Positions 19,897-34,407 of a stretch of 64,000 nucleotides of DNA are shown here, one piece after another (the first letter of the stretch is position 1; every line of letters begins with the position of its first letter). This stretch comes from Candidatus Kapaibacterium thiocyanatum (GTDB taxonomy: Bacteria; Bacteroidota; Ignavibacteria; Kapaibacteriales; Kapaibacteriaceae), in NCBI GenBank assembly GCA_001899175.1, contig MKVH01000024.1, positions 310,001-374,000 on the forward strand, in the 5' to 3' direction. The notes beneath the pieces are model-generated. The model was not told where the DNA came from. It was given only the letters and a program-made list of their open reading frames with translations, and did no database searches. The position numbers and the translations under genes were made by a program.

Positions 19897-21420
19897 TCAG
19901 TGTCGGAAATGGCGCATGCCCGTCATCATCATCGCCAGTCCCTTTTCATTGGCCGCGGCGATGACTTCTTCGTCGCGGACCGACCCGCCAGGCTGGATGA
20001 CGCACGTCGCCCCTGCTTCCGCAGCCTGGATCAGGCCATCGGCGAAGGGGAAGAACGCATCCGAAGCCACGGCGCATCCCTTGAGATCGATGCCGGCATC
20101 CTCGGCCTTGCGTACGGCGATACGGGCGGAATCCAGACGTGACATCTGGCCTGCGCCGATGGCGAGCGTACGATCCTTGACGGCATAGACGATGGCATTG
20201 CTCTTGACGTGCTTGGCGATCTTCCATGCATACATCATCGCCGCCCGTTCATCATCGGTAGGATGGCGCTCGGTGACGGTGCGAAGAGCCGTCTCGTCGA
20301 GCAGTTCCTTGTCCGTGTCCTGGACGAGATAGCCGCCGGCCACGGTCCGTACGTCCATGCCGAGCGACGCCCGCAACGCGGCTTCGTCCATCGTCATCAG
20401 ACGGCGATCCTTCTTCTTGCGGAGGATGTCGAGGGCCTCGTCCGTGAAGGACGGGGCGATGAGCACTTCCGTGAACAGGGAATGGATTTCTTCGGCGAAG
20501 GCCTTGTCGACGATCCGGTTCAGGGCGATGATGCCGCCGAACGGACTTACCGTGTCGGTGGCGAAGGCCTTGCGATAGGCATCGACGAGGTCGGTGCCGC
20601 TGCCGACGCCGCATGGATTGTTGTGCTTGACGATGACGCAGGTGGGCTCGTCGAATTCCAGGACGAGCTTCGCGGCCGCGTCGATGTCGAGGATGTTGTT
20701 GTAGGACAGTTCCTTGCCGTGGAGCTGTGCGAAGATGTTCAGGAAGCCTCCGTAGAGAGCGGCCCGCTGATGCGGATTCTCTCCATAGCGCAGGGCCTGC
20801 TCCTTGCGCAGTGGCAATGCGCGCTCGTCCGGCAGCGCCAGACCTTCGGTACGTGCGAACCAGGACGATACCATGCCGTCATAGTAGGCCGTGTGGGAGA
20901 ATGCCTCGCGAGCGAGCTGACGTCTGAAGACCTGGGGCACGTTGCCGCTCTTCAGGTGGTCGATCAACTCGGAATAGCGGCCGGGATTGACCACGATGCA
21001 CGTATGCCTGAAGTTCTTCGCCGAGGCGCGTACCATGGCCGGACCGCCGATGTCGATGTTCTCGATCAGGTCTTCTTCCGTCGCCGACGGATTCGCCAGC
21101 GTCTTCTCGAAGGGATAGAGGTTGATGATGGCGATGTCGATGCTCGTGATGCCGTGCTCTTCCATTTCCCGGACGTGGGCGCTGTTGTCAAGAACGCCGA
21201 GCAGGGCGCCGTGGATCTTGGGGTGGAGGGTCTTCACGCGGCCGTCCATGATTTCCGGGAATCCGGTGATGTCGCTCACCTTCGTGACGGGGAGGCCCGC
21301 CTCCTTGAGCGCTGCGGCCGTTCCACCCGTGGAGATCAGACCGATGCCCAGGGCATGCAGTTCGCGGGCGAGATCGACGATACCGGTTTTGTCGGAGACG
21401 GAGAGCAGGGCTTGCATCAT
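19897..21420 (-). CDS. purH: Bifunctional AICAR transformylase / IMP cyclohydrolase
   Basis: Performs the last two steps of IMP synthesis. The 507-residue length matches the family. The N-terminal IMP cyclohydrolase domain starts [15 protein letters not shown] and includes STGGTA and [15 protein letters not shown]. The C-terminal transformylase domain has the catalytic [11 protein letters not shown] segment and [10 protein letters not shown], and ends TGMRHFRH. The start is placed at the first of two consecutive ATGs (21420 or 21417). The longer frame to 21513 is not supported by homology at the N-terminus. A -7-like element (TATTTTCG) lies about 38 bases upstream. Confidence 0.96.
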
Positions 21421-21457
21421 GTGAGGGCTGGGAGGCATGGATAATCGTTGCAGAACG

Positions 21458-21465
21458 CGAAAATA
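21458..21465 (-). promoter_or_regulatory. -7 promoter element of purH
   Basis: TATTTTCG on the minus strand, one base from TAnnTTTG, 38 bases before the purH start. Confidence 0.4.
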
Positions 21466-21546
21466 CGGCCTAGCCGTCAATGCATCATCCGACGGTACCC
21501 CGCCATCGGTCACGCCCGCCCTATCAGCCCGGACAATGGAATATCG

Positions 21547-21624: not shown

Positions 21625-22866
21625 ATGAAAAGCACCATTACCTGCGACATGGAAGGCATCATCCAGACCTTCAACCAGGGGGCCGAGACGCTGTTCGGCT
21701 ACTCGAAGGAAGAAACGGTGGGCAAGCTGCGCGTTTCCGTATTCTCACCAGGAGAAATCGTCCTGCAGAACCTGAAGACGTGGCTCTCCCAGGCTGATGC
21801 GACGGGCGAGTACGTCACGGAAACCAACTTCATCAGGAAGAACGGCGACGTCTTCGGAGCGCGGATACGTCTGTCACCGACATTCAAGGACGGGCAGCAG
21901 ATCGGATACTGCGGCGTCACCGAGGAACTCGAACGTCCCGTCGACGTGCCGATCAGGACGGCGACGAAGATCGTCCGCTGGCTCGTCATCACGCGGGCAC
22001 CCTTCCTGACCGCGGCCCTGGTTCCGTGCTTCATCGGTCTCGCCTTCGCCGGTAGCGTGGCCGGTGTACCGATCAACGGCTTGTATGCGACCCTGGCGAT
22101 CCTCGGCGTGGCCCTCCTCCATCTCGCGAGCAATGTCTACAACGACTACTTCGACGTGAAGAGCGGTACGGACCAGGCGAATACGAAGTACTTCGTCCAG
22201 TATTCCGGCGGGTCACGTGCCATAGAGATGGGGCTGATCGATCTCAAGGGAACGCGGACCGTCGCCATGTGGCTCATGATCGGGGCCTTCGCCATCGGCC
22301 TGTTCCTGACGTGGCAGATCGGTATGGGCGTGCTCTGGTACGGTCTTGCGGGCCTGTTCTGCGGCTATCTCTATACCGCTCCGCCGGTCCGTCTCGTGGC
22401 GCGCAGGGGGCTGGGTGAAGTGACGATCGGCATGGCCTTCGGCCCGCTCATCACGGCCGGAATGTATTACGTGCTCACCGGTACGTCGTCGTGGGAAGCC
22501 TTCCTGATCGGCATTCCGACCGGACTGTTGACGACGAACATCCTGCTCATCAATCAGGTGCCCGATGCCGACAGTGACGCCACGACGGGAAAGAACCATC
22601 TCGTGGTGACGTTCGGCAAGGACGCGGCCGTCTGGTTCTATACGTTGTTCTGGGCCGGTGCCATCGCCACGACGGTATGGCTGGGCCTACGGCACCATGC
22701 GCCGCTCCTCTGGATCCCGGCCGGTATCGGGCTCGTCTATGGGGCCTGGGTCATCAGCTACATGCGCCGCAACATCCATTCACGTGCACTCGTGAAGGCC
22801 AACATCAACACCATCTATCTGCAGATCGTCGTCGGTGCACTGTTCGCCCTCATGCTGGTGTTCTGA
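21625..22866 (+). CDS. PAS domain fused to a UbiA-superfamily prenyltransferase
   Basis: A 413-residue fusion. Residues 1-105 form a PAS sensor domain: ITCDMEGIIQTFNQGAETLF, GYSKEETVGK, then the PAC part RKNGDVFGARIRLSPTF ending GYCGVTEEL. From residue 112 onward the protein is an integral-membrane prenyltransferase of about eight to nine helices. It carries both prenyl-diphosphate/Mg motifs: N173-D174-xx-D177-x5-D183 in NDYFDVKSGTD, and D314/D318 in NQVPDADSDATTGK. Such enzymes attach isoprenoid chains to aromatic quinone precursors; the second motif is MenA-like, but the acceptor is not readable. The fusion is in one uninterrupted frame with good coding character throughout. It is expressed alone from a TetR-type-operator promoter and converges on folC. 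Confidence 0.88.
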   Translation: MKSTITCDMEGIIQTFNQGAETLFGYSKEETVGKLRVSVFSPGEIVLQNLKTWLSQADATGEYVTETNFIRKNGDVFGARIRLSPTFKDGQQIGYCGVTEELERPVDVPIRTATKIVRWLVITRAPFLTAALVPCFIGLAFAGSVAGVPINGLYATLAILGVALLHLASNVYNDYFDVKSGTDQANTKYFVQYSGGSRAIEMGLIDLKGTRTVAMWLMIGAFAIGLFLTWQIGMGVLWYGLAGLFCGYLYTAPPVRLVARRGLGEVTIGMAFGPLITAGMYYVLTGTSSWEAFLIGIPTGLLTTNILLINQVPDADSDATTGKNHLVVTFGKDAAVWFYTLFWAGAIATTVWLGLRHHAPLLWIPAGIGLVYGAWVISYMRRNIHSRALVKANINTIYLQIVVGALFALMLVF

Positions 22867-22900: not shown

Positions 22901-24211
22901 TTATCGATCGTTCGGCAGGACTGCGGACGCTTCCTCGGCCACGTAGAACGAACCGCAGACGAGCGTTGCCATGTCGGCTTCCAATGCCGCACGGACGGCG
23001 TCGGCGACCGTGCCGAACGTCCTTACGTCATCGAAGCCGTTCCTCATTGCGCGTTCGGCGAGTTCTTCCGGTGCCATCGAACGCTTGTAGTCCGGTGCAC
23101 AGACGTGGAGCGTCTGCGTGAGCGGTCTGAGATCCGCGAGCATGGCATCGGCATCCTTGTCGGCCATGACACCGAAGACGACCTGCCAGGGGTGCCCAGC
23201 GAGGCCGCAAGCCGCAAGCGTCTCGACGAGGGCCTTCATTCCCGCAGGGTTGTGGGCGACGTCGAGGACGATCGGTGGCTCGTGCCGTCGTAGCTGGATG
23301 CGTCCGGCATGTCCGGTTACCGCCTGCACACGTTGAAGGCCTAGGCGGACGTGCTCTTCGGAAATGAAGTAGATCGACCGCAATACGGGCAGGGCTGCGA
23401 TCACACCTGCCAGATTCCGCGCCTGATGCGGTCCGCACAGGTCGGTCGTCAGATAGTACCGGAAGTTCTGATCGATGACGCTCACGGTCATCGTGAGATC
23501 CGGATGATAGCTGTCGACGTCGACCTGCAGAACGTCGTCGACGAAGGTGAGGGGAGCATGGAGCCGTTGTGCTCGTTCTTCGAAGACGGAGCGGAGTTCC
23601 GGACGCGGTTCCGTGACGATGCACGGAACGTCGGCCTTGATGATGCCTGCCTTCTCTCCTGCGATCCCGGTCAGCGTCGAGCCGAGATACTCCTCGTGAT
23701 CGATGTCGATCGACGTGATGATCGTCAGCAGTGGAGACACGACGTTCGTCGCGTCGAGACGTCCACCGAGTCCCGTTTCGATGACGGCCACATCGACGCG
23801 CTGTTCGGCGAAGTACTGCAGTGCCATCGCCGTCGTCACCTCGAAGAACGTCCCGCCGATCGGCTTGGCGACATTCATGAGGGGCCGCGCCAGGCGGGCG
23901 ATATCCTCATCGGAGATCTCGGTGCCGTTTATCCGTATGCGTTCGTTGAAGCGGGCGATATGCGGTGATGTATAGAGTCCGGTCTTGTAGCCCGCCTGCT
24001 GCAGGATGGCAGCAAGCATGGCGCACGTACTGCCCTTGCCGTTCGTACCTGCGACGTGGATGACGGGAAGCATGACGTGCGGATCGCCGATGTGCGTGAG
24101 AAGCGTTTCGATACGTTCGAGGCCGGGCTTGATGCCGAAGAACGTCATGGCGAACAGTTCTTCGAGAAGAGGGGCGATGGACATGATGATGACGGGGTGG
24201 ATGACGGACAT
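22901..24211 (-). CDS. folC: Folylpolyglutamate synthase / dihydrofolate synthase
   Basis: Mur-ligase-family enzyme that adds glutamate to dihydropteroate or folates using ATP. The 436 residues match the family. Motifs in order are the P-loop VAGTNGKGSTCAML, TSPHIARFNERIRING, the ligase segment VIETGLGGRLDATNVV, ITSIDIDHEEYLG, GEKAGIIK, and the C-terminal VLDVAHNPAGMKAL. The start at 24211 is supported by a strong CCGGAGGT ribosome-binding site at 24228-24221 with a nine-base spacer. It follows rpsA on the same strand, but a terminator hairpin separates them. Confidence 0.95.
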   Translation of the reverse strand: MSVIHPVIIMSIAPLLEELFAMTFFGIKPGLERIETLLTHIGDPHVMLPVIHVAGTNGKGSTCAMLAAILQQAGYKTGLYTSPHIARFNERIRINGTEISDEDIARLARPLMNVAKPIGGTFFEVTTAMALQYFAEQRVDVAVIETGLGGRLDATNVVSPLLTIITSIDIDHEEYLGSTLTGIAGEKAGIIKADVPCIVTEPRPELRSVFEERAQRLHAPLTFVDDVLQVDVDSYHPDLTMTVSVIDQNFRYYLTTDLCGPHQARNLAGVIAALPVLRSIYFISEEHVRLGLQRVQAVTGHAGRIQLRRHEPPIVLDVAHNPAGMKALVETLAACGLAGHPWQVVFGVMADKDADAMLADLRPLTQTLHVCAPDYKRSMAPEELAERAMRNGFDDVRTFGTVADAVRAALEADMATLVCGSFYVAEEASAVLPNDR

Positions 24212-33243: not shown

Positions 33244-34407
33244 ATGTCCGGCTCTCCCCGCACCATCACCATCCTCGGGTCTACGGGATCGATCGGCTCG
33301 CAAACGCTCGATATCCTCACCCGTCGTGGTGACGACTTCCGACTGAACTTCATCACCTGCAATACCAGGGTCGACGATCTGATCGCCCAGGTGCGCCGCC
33401 ACGAACCACGTGGCGTCGCCATCCGCGACGAAGAGGCCTGGCGCAGCTTCCGTATGCAGTGTCCGGAATTCAGGGGTCCCGTCCTCCTCGGCGAGGAAGG
33501 ACTGTGCGAAGCCGCCGCCCATTCCGATAACGACATCGTCATGAGCGCCATGGTCGGTTTCAGTGGTGTCGTGCCGACGATGGCCGCCATCCGCACGGGC
33601 GTGGTGATAGGCCTGGCCAACAAGGAAACGCTCGTGAGTGCCGGCGACGTGATGACGGCCGCGGCGCGTGAACACGGAGCCACGCTCATCGCCGTGGACA
33701 GCGAACACAGTGCCATCCTGCAATGCATGGCCGGCGAGCGTATCGCCGACATCGAGAAATTCATCATCACGGCGTCGGGAGGACCATTCCGGACCTTCAC
33801 GCACGAGCAGCTCGCAGACGTCACGGCGGAGCAGGCCCTGCGACATCCCAACTGGACGATGGGAGCGAAGATCACGATCGATTCGGCGACGCTCATGAAC
33901 AAGGGCTTCGAGGTGATCGAAGCGCGATGGCTGTTCGATCTGGCTCCGGAGCACATCGACGTCGTCATCCATCCCCAATCCATCATCCACAGCATGGTGC
34001 AGTTCGTCGATGGCAGCGTCAAGGCGCAGATGGGACTGCCCACCATGCTCGTACCCATCCAGTACGCCCTGACCTATCCCGTACGGATGCCGCTCGACAT
34101 TCCACGCATGGATCTCGCCGCGATGTCCACGCTGACGTTCGAACGTCCGGACGTCGACAGATTCCCGTGCCTCAGGATCGCCTACGACGTCCTGAAGGAA
34201 GGGGGAACGGCAGCCTGCGTAGCCAACGCCGCGAACGAGATCGCCGTGGCGGCCTTCCTCGAAGGGCGCTGCAGCTTCACCGGAATAGCGTCGTTGATCG
34301 AGCGTACGCTGGCGGACATGGAAAGCGTGGCTCATCCGTCATTGGATGACGTCGTCGCCGTCGATGCCGAAGCCCGCCGCCGGGCCCGTATCTTCCTGAA
34401 CATCTGA
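33244..34407 (+). CDS. dxr: 1-deoxy-D-xylulose 5-phosphate reductoisomerase
   Basis: NADPH-dependent second enzyme of the MEP isoprenoid pathway, producing 2-C-methyl-D-erythritol 4-phosphate. The 387 residues include the dinucleotide loop ILGSTGSIGSQTLDIL, ANKETLVSAG, the metal/substrate segment VDSEHSAILQ, ASGGPFR, and the hallmark NWTMGAKITIDSATLMNKG followed by EARWLFDL. The start is six bases after rng. Its presence shows the cell makes isoprenoids by the MEP route, which would supply the prenyl chains used by the UbiA-family enzyme in this window. Confidence 0.97.
   Translation: MSGSPRTITILGSTGSIGSQTLDILTRRGDDFRLNFITCNTRVDDLIAQVRRHEPRGVAIRDEEAWRSFRMQCPEFRGPVLLGEEGLCEAAAHSDNDIVMSAMVGFSGVVPTMAAIRTGVVIGLANKETLVSAGDVMTAAAREHGATLIAVDSEHSAILQCMAGERIADIEKFIITASGGPFRTFTHEQLADVTAEQALRHPNWTMGAKITIDSATLMNKGFEVIEARWLFDLAPEHIDVVIHPQSIIHSMVQFVDGSVKAQMGLPTMLVPIQYALTYPVRMPLDIPRMDLAAMSTLTFERPDVDRFPCLRIAYDVLKEGGTAACVANAANEIAVAAFLEGRCSFTGIASLIERTLADMESVAHPSLDDVVAVDAEARRRARIFLNI

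Follow-up and report, generated by a model that had tools for sequence, protein, structure and literature searches.

A PAS domain joined in frame to a UbiA-family prenyltransferase in Kapaibacteriaceae and other bacterial lineages

Introduction

PAS domains that report redox state through bound FAD include those of NifL, MmoS and Aer. In the available part of one study (PMC10468136), a Trp at a defined place is the primary determinant of FAD binding in these sensors, and a His and an Asn are secondary determinants. According to the available part of another (PMC10874727), the PAS domain of PA0285 looked fit for FAD, yet showed no FAD binding. On the side of quinone biosynthesis, the available part of PMC13386864 describes many lineages, chiefly of Bacillota and Chloroflexota, in which no known quinone pathway is found, and raises the prospect of quinones yet to be discovered.

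Here we describe a gene in which a PAS domain precedes a UbiA prenyltransferase, an architecture that the preliminary description of this DNA did not know as a characterized system. Our full-text literature search, which covers few subscription papers, agrees: it returned no published description of such a fusion, and nothing that joins Kapabacteria with menaquinone. The available parts of PMC3914697, PMC5492636 and PMC6338057 contain nothing on the fusion gene or on Kapabacteria quinone genes, and PMC3534657 has no mention of fusion- or quinone-related terms. The PAS–UbiA fusion is a new architecture of a known kind of enzyme. We propose, giving the proposal an even chance, that it is a MenA-like quinone prenyltransferase controlled by a redox-sensing PAS domain that probably binds flavin.

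Structure of the fusion gene

The window, a 64,000-nucleotide stretch of DNA, encodes the fusion and its surroundings as follows.

21625..22866, + strand: PAS–UbiA fusion gene, 413 amino acids, no internal stop (open reading frame and Pfam)
21625..21939, + strand: PAS domain, residues 1–105 (PF13426, 1e-8; model against 3lyx, Z 17.6, rmsd 1.3 over 104 residues)
21643..21645, + strand: Cys7 in the first PAS strand (residues 3–8, from the model); in 59 of 59 distinct PAS sequences with a residue there
21781..21783, + strand: Trp53 in PAS helix 43–60; in 61 of 61 sequences, aligned with the Trp of Aer (8dik) and NifL (2gj3)
21910..21912, + strand: Cys96 in the last PAS strand (residues 91–101); in 60 of 61 PAS sequences
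21931..21996, + strand: linker and short helix 112–123 leading into the first membrane helix (model; residues 103–116, 36% identity)
21973..22863, + strand: UbiA prenyltransferase domain, residues 117–413 (PF01040, 3.9e-32; UBIAD1 8djk, Z 26.0, rmsd 3.0 over 267 residues)
22132..22155, + strand: first metal motif, N170–D177 (N170, N173, D174 and D177 invariant in 21 sequences)
22552..22578, + strand: second metal motif, N310–D318 (N310, D314 and D318 invariant in 21 sequences)
19897..21513, − strand: purH, left flank, context only (open reading frame, named by eye)
22901..24211, − strand: folC, right flank, context only (open reading frame, named by eye; homologue in 6 of 6 genomes searched)
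33244..34407, + strand: dxr, about 10 kb from the fusion (named by eye)

Both halves are recognized by profile and by predicted fold. PAS_9 matches residues 5–95 (1e-8) over its cut-off, as do PAS and PAS_4, and the UbiA profile matches residues 131–384 with 111.9 bits against a cut-off of 34.2. The two Asp-rich metal motifs of the UbiA superfamily, N170-x3-D174-x2-D177 and N310-x3-D314-x3-D318, are invariant in 21 sequences from several phyla. In an AlphaFold2 model built from an alignment of 21 rows (pLDDT 86.1, pTM 0.81), residues 1–105 match PAS structures (3lyx, Z 17.6; Aer, Z 15.9; NifL, Z 15.4) and residues 112–413 match UbiA structures (UBIAD1, Z 26.0; Aeropyrum UbiA, Z 21.7), and the second membrane helix ends in the first metal motif. 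The number of helices, read with the usual UbiA topology, would put the N-terminus on the cytoplasmic side together with the active site. An in-frame fusion with both metal motifs intact, as originally described, is thus what the reading frame, the profiles, the motifs and the model all show. The nearby dxr that was brought up in the same context is present, with no special link to the fusion.

The PAS domain and what it may sense

Mean pairwise identity across 21 sequences is 63.1% in the PAS domain, 49.2% in the enzyme and 36.3% in the linker, and the PAS domain is more conserved than the enzyme in 15 of 15 between-group comparisons; by this measure of its sequence it is under strong constraint. 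The poorly conserved linker gives no support for a rigid coupling between PAS domain and enzyme. Residue counts were drawn from 62 distinct PAS sequences and, because one of our search patterns contains Cys96, this residue was counted again in 40 loci found independently of the pattern, 39 of which have it.

Trp53 is present in all 61 sequences and aligns with the Fα Trp of Aer and NifL, the place of the FAD determinant in NifL, MmoS and Aer. This fits the earlier suggestion of a PAS domain of the redox-sensor kind, and the domain probably binds flavin. Against flavin sensing, the 62 sequences have no conserved His, and 3lyx, the closest PAS structure listed, lacks a Trp at the place of Trp53.

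Two other cofactor classes were considered and rejected. A haem-binding PAS domain of the FixL/DosP type has a His in Fα, which does not fit a PAS domain with no His in the window protein and none conserved in the family. In LOV domains the flavin-binding Cys lies in the Eα helix region, and the only two cysteines of the window's PAS domain are in its first and last strands, outside that region.

The strong conservation would also be expected of a fixed partner, and it is possible, though on balance unlikely, that the same enzyme carries its PAS domain as a structural or docking part that holds a dimer or a partner enzyme (UbiE or a thioesterase, for example) at the membrane without sensing anything. 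PAS domains commonly form dimers, and in the 99 and 196 genomes searched this one never occurs as a separate gene. However, a cofactor or redox role better explains why Trp53 is invariant at the FAD position and why the two cysteines nearly are, and, one two-locus cluster aside, gene neighbours are shared no further than the lineage.

The PAS domain might instead sense a ligand (the ring precursor, the quinone or the polyprenyl diphosphate) rather than redox state, and so exert feedback on the enzyme. Mycobacteria have such a control, in which DHNA feeds back on MenD. PAS domains bind various cofactors and ligands (available part of PMC10468136), yet Trp53 indicates FAD, and we consider ligand sensing quite unlikely.

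Relationship of the enzyme to MenA

We return to the proposed redox-controlled quinone enzyme. The curated families nearest to its prenyltransferase part are MenA types, which, with the UbiA fold and intact motifs, upholds the initial assignment to quinone-type enzymes. All the MenA equivalog cut-offs listed are missed (NF004751, 116.4 against 264 bits; TIGR00751, 66.2 against 102.15), and we therefore do not call it a MenA, although we argue that it works like one. A second copy in the window's genome, without a PAS domain, passes both cut-offs and adjoins ubiE.

Among 23 genomes of the family searched at E up to 1e-5, 9 combine the fusion with a MenA-like gene that lacks a PAS domain, 11 have the fusion only, 3 have a MenA-like gene only (one of them, G001, in two copies) and none has neither. 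Independent distribution of the two genes would leave about 1.4 genomes with neither, and the counts alone are therefore weak. Synteny is stronger. The gene order in G000 and G001 is lipoprotein–menA–ubiE; in five fusion-only genomes (G010, G012, G015, G018 and G022) ubiE is kept right beside the lipoprotein gene, and tblastn with the G000 menA found no menA at the locus. In the fusion-less G007 and G019 a MenA-like gene lies beside ubiE, and in the fusion-only G005 and G011 ubiE has different surroundings. Of the 12 family genomes tested for UbiE, 11 exceed the cut-off and G020 falls just short of it.

A Pfam UbiA search found no MenA-type member in 8 of the 11 fusion-only genomes (G005, G010, G011, G012, G015, G018, G020 and G022), with the remaining UbiA copies assigned by context (by eye) in some genomes and by similar scores elsewhere. 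Context identifies CyoE in G000 and G005 and a DprE-linked member in G000, G005, G010, G012 and G015. The other members in G005, a single contig, are CyoE in the cox cluster, the DprE-linked gene and a weak match of 285 amino acids (by eye). From this genome content, the fusion appears to replace MenA in 11 of the 23 genomes of its own family, or about half.

The 285-residue protein of G005 (L112, 2140–2997) is a remote UbiA-like protein of no clear family.

Gene neighbourhoods

Within the window's family the shared neighbours are purH and folC; members of one marine clade have a DnaK gene (by eye) and a thioesterase gene in common. The latter encodes a hotdog thioesterase and lies 62–72 bases upstream of the fusion, in the same direction, in six marine Flavobacteriales loci:

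L060, 5511–5936: hotdog thioesterase gene; same place in L061, L062, L063, L069 and L071

The L060 product, the one copy tested, matches models of EntH and of the DHNA-CoA hydrolase MenI below their cut-offs, which would fit an aryl-CoA precursor freed right before prenylation. In five other Flavobacteriales loci (L158, 9301–9627; L162, L165, L166 and L171) the fusion is directly followed by a gene for a 108-residue protein; the one copy tested, from L158, matches 4a-hydroxytetrahydrobiopterin dehydratase models below cut-off.

Genes for the quinone ring

The genes that make DHNA, the companions expected of a MenA, were not found with the fusion. We searched 38 genomes, comprising the 23 of the family and 15 fusion genomes of other lineages, with control genomes positive. 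No genome of the 38 has MenD over the cut-off: the 23 of the family give no match at 1e-10, and weak matches under the cut-off occur in 10 of the other 15. MqnC is missing from all 38 at 1e-10, including family genomes that keep MenA; the fusion Flavobacteriales covered by this search were G106–G109. MenB is over its cut-off in 7 of 64 genomes, none of them in the family and none with the fusion. The ring may come from uptake or from an unknown route. Proteins of the MqnA/MqnD type (PF02621) match at about 26–36 bits in nine family genomes; in G099 and G100, both with the fusion, they match at 68–70 bits. On these matches, a partial futalosine-like set may be present there.

All 23 family genomes (G000–G022) have a menA-like gene or the fusion, yet none has MenD, MqnC or MenB over cut-off.

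In Flavobacteriales, MenB was scored in 80 selected genomes: 22 with the fusion, G107–G109, and 55 fusion-less ones, small genomes first. It is over cut-off in 0 of 25 fusion genomes, in 40 of 40 fusion-less genomes with a MenA-like gene and in 1 of 15 with neither, or 0 of 25 against 41 of 55 (Fisher p 4e-11, among relatives that are not independent). Against a tight link between the fusion and a missing pathway, MenB and MenD are missing from MenA-bearing family genomes as well, and other families in the order of the window's family lack both MenB and the fusion, as do 14 Flavobacteriales. Among genomes with the fusion, UbiE is over cut-off in 13 of 25 Flavobacteriales and in 7 of 11 from other lineages, compared with 7 of 7 MenB genomes and 9 of 9 genomes with neither; of the 14 Flavobacteriales just mentioned, the nine tested have it over cut-off.

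These 14 genomes, which have no fusion, no MenA-like gene (1e-8) and no MenB, are G121, G124, G127, G128, G135, G137, G139, G140, G147, G149, G150, G154, G156 and G159.

Homogentisate, which would make the product plastoquinone-like, was considered as a ring substrate through the distribution of HPPD (E up to 1e-20). HPPD occurs in 21 of 25 fusion Flavobacteriales against 11 of 12 with neither fusion nor MenB. Of the small genomes with MenB, 9 of 16 have it; in the family it is present in 11 of 11, whether or not they carry the fusion, and among fusion genomes from other lineages in only 6 of 11. As it is not specific to fusion genomes, this substrate was set aside.

Several of these results would suit a product that is not a respiratory quinone, for example a prenylated pigment or protective lipid: the missed MenA cut-offs, the MenA-like gene that accompanies the fusion in 9 of 23 family genomes, and the 12 of 25 fusion Flavobacteriales without UbiE over cut-off. 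We nevertheless rate this as improbable. The fusion is the sole MenA-like UbiA found in 11 family genomes. Four marine Flavobacteriales genomes have just two UbiA genes each, the fusion being one; the second, looked at in G106, lies beside cytochrome oxidase genes (L114, by eye).

Distribution and origin of the fusion

The fusion is present in 20 of the 23 family genomes (the window's own and 22 others searched), whose contigs are titled, for example, Ignavibacteria bacterium or Candidatus Kapaibacterium. Seventeen copies are in one piece (that of G006 cut at a contig end), those of G008 and G014 are split across two contigs, and of that in G021 there is a C-terminal piece, next to folC where the contig ends. 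It is missing from G001, of the same genus, and from G007 and G019; there folC and purH adjoin directly (by eye), which from the sequence reads as either a clean loss or an empty site.

The same in-frame junction recurs in 16 further family sequences at 64–72% identity (one cut at a contig end) and in other lineages at 42–59% identity, which excludes chance or misassembly. A scan of contigs with two peptide patterns returned 66 matching stretches and 39 confirmed loci, in the window's family and its relatives, Chloroflexota, marine Flavobacteriales, one Gemmatimonadota and one Gammaproteobacteria MAG. Independently of the patterns, a profile search of 196 sampled Flavobacteriales genomes detected the fusion in 22. 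Two of these copies are cut at contig ends (G210 and G307), and in two more (G206 and G183) a stop or frameshift interrupts the enzyme part. Nearly all titled fusion loci are MAGs, small ones of which may miss genes, and no cultured host was identified among them.

The preliminary description had named an assembly error, or separate genes in relatives, as findings that would overturn the fusion. Neither was encountered: no relative among the 99 and 196 genomes searched encodes the PAS domain and the enzyme as separate genes, and the PAS-only matches sit in frames of 388–1582 amino acids and therefore belong to other PAS proteins. That the junction is an assembly or annotation artefact has negligible probability, as no point in its favour was found, the junction recurs in the 16 further family sequences, in Flavobacteriales and in further phyla, and the broken copies of G183 and G206 break within the UbiA part, away from it.

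In a quick midpoint-rooted tree of 82 rows, from which three short rows and matches below 50 bits were left out, the fusions and two broken copies form a group of 59 rows with an SH-aLRT of 85, below the starred level. The two broken copies, L145 (G206) and L148 (G183), are labelled enzyme-only in the tree and are broken fusion genes with PAS in an adjoining frame. Since the fused sequences group together, the tree suggests, with moderate support, a single fusion event followed by spread.

Spread on plasmids was considered and rejected. Eleven plasmid records match, none over more than 80% of the query, and the 10 matches listed start at residue 94 or later and hence lack the PAS domain. Among those 10, 6 are annotated as DHNA polyprenyltransferase and 4 have no annotation under the match.

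In G103 (contig C11, 40235–42323) the fusion adjoins a second UbiA gene that resembles haem O synthase (by eye, L055). UbiA matches in other families in the order of the window's family (G026, G035, G040, G042, G048, G057 and G058) lie in open frames of 456–544 amino acids, which may be other fusions or merely long open frames.

Proposed mechanism

In the mechanism that we propose, the enzyme would catalyse, as MenA does, the joining of a polyprenyl chain to the ring precursor of a respiratory quinone. The PAS domain, on the cytoplasmic side like the active site, would most likely hold a flavin (FAD), and the redox state of this flavin, possibly together with Cys7 and Cys96, would report the redox state of the cell. 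The signal could pass from the last PAS strand through the linker and helix 112–123 to the first membrane helix and there set the enzyme's activity, turning prenylation of the ring acid up or down, and quinone production would thereby track the redox state of the cell.

In favour of this proposal are the UbiA fold with intact motifs, the MenA types as nearest families, the DHNA polyprenyltransferase annotation of 6 of the 10 plasmid matches listed, the menA missing beside ubiE in five fusion-only genomes, the thioesterase upstream in six loci, a PAS domain that outconserves its enzyme, and Trp53 (61 of 61) at the Trp of Aer and NifL. Against it are the missed MenA cut-offs, the MenA-like gene kept by nine family genomes, the patchy UbiE in fusion genomes outside the family and a ring source that was not found. 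More tentatively, in a reading that is on balance unlikely, the fusion could prenylate the ring in a respiratory-quinone route not yet described, in lineages that lack the known menaquinone pathways; a flavin-bearing PAS domain would then let the cell's redox state set the size of the quinone pool by direct action on the enzyme.

If the proposal is true, a sensor built into the prenyltransferase would link the redox state of the cell directly to the pool of electron carriers. For the question of bacteria without a known quinone pathway, raised in the available part of PMC13386864, the fusion offers a concrete gene in such genomes from several phyla.

Comparison with known systems

Among described PAS domains, the FAD-binding ones of Aer, NifL and MmoS share the fold of the fusion's (Z 14.5–15.9). 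With Aer and NifL it also shares the Fα Trp; with MmoS the comparison is one of fold. In the alignment, Aer has Thr and Met where the fusion has Cys7 and Cys96. The closest solved PAS structure among the matches listed, 3lyx from Colwellia CPS_1291 (rmsd 1.3 over 104 residues), belongs to a GGDEF protein and lacks Trp53 and both cysteines. Whereas Aer, NifL and MmoS are a chemoreceptor and regulatory kinases or kinase-like proteins, the PAS domain described here sits on a membrane biosynthetic enzyme.

For that enzyme, the closest solved UbiA fold among the matches listed is UBIAD1 (8djk, Z 26.0), an animal enzyme that is not known to carry a PAS domain. The best-scoring curated family is MenA (NF004751, TIGR00751), which shares the UbiA fold and the two Asp motifs. 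The fusion differs from it in its second motif (NQxPDxxxD, against NNLRDxxxD in the MenA of the window's genome), in its own group in the tree (SH-aLRT 85) and in the PAS domain that it carries.
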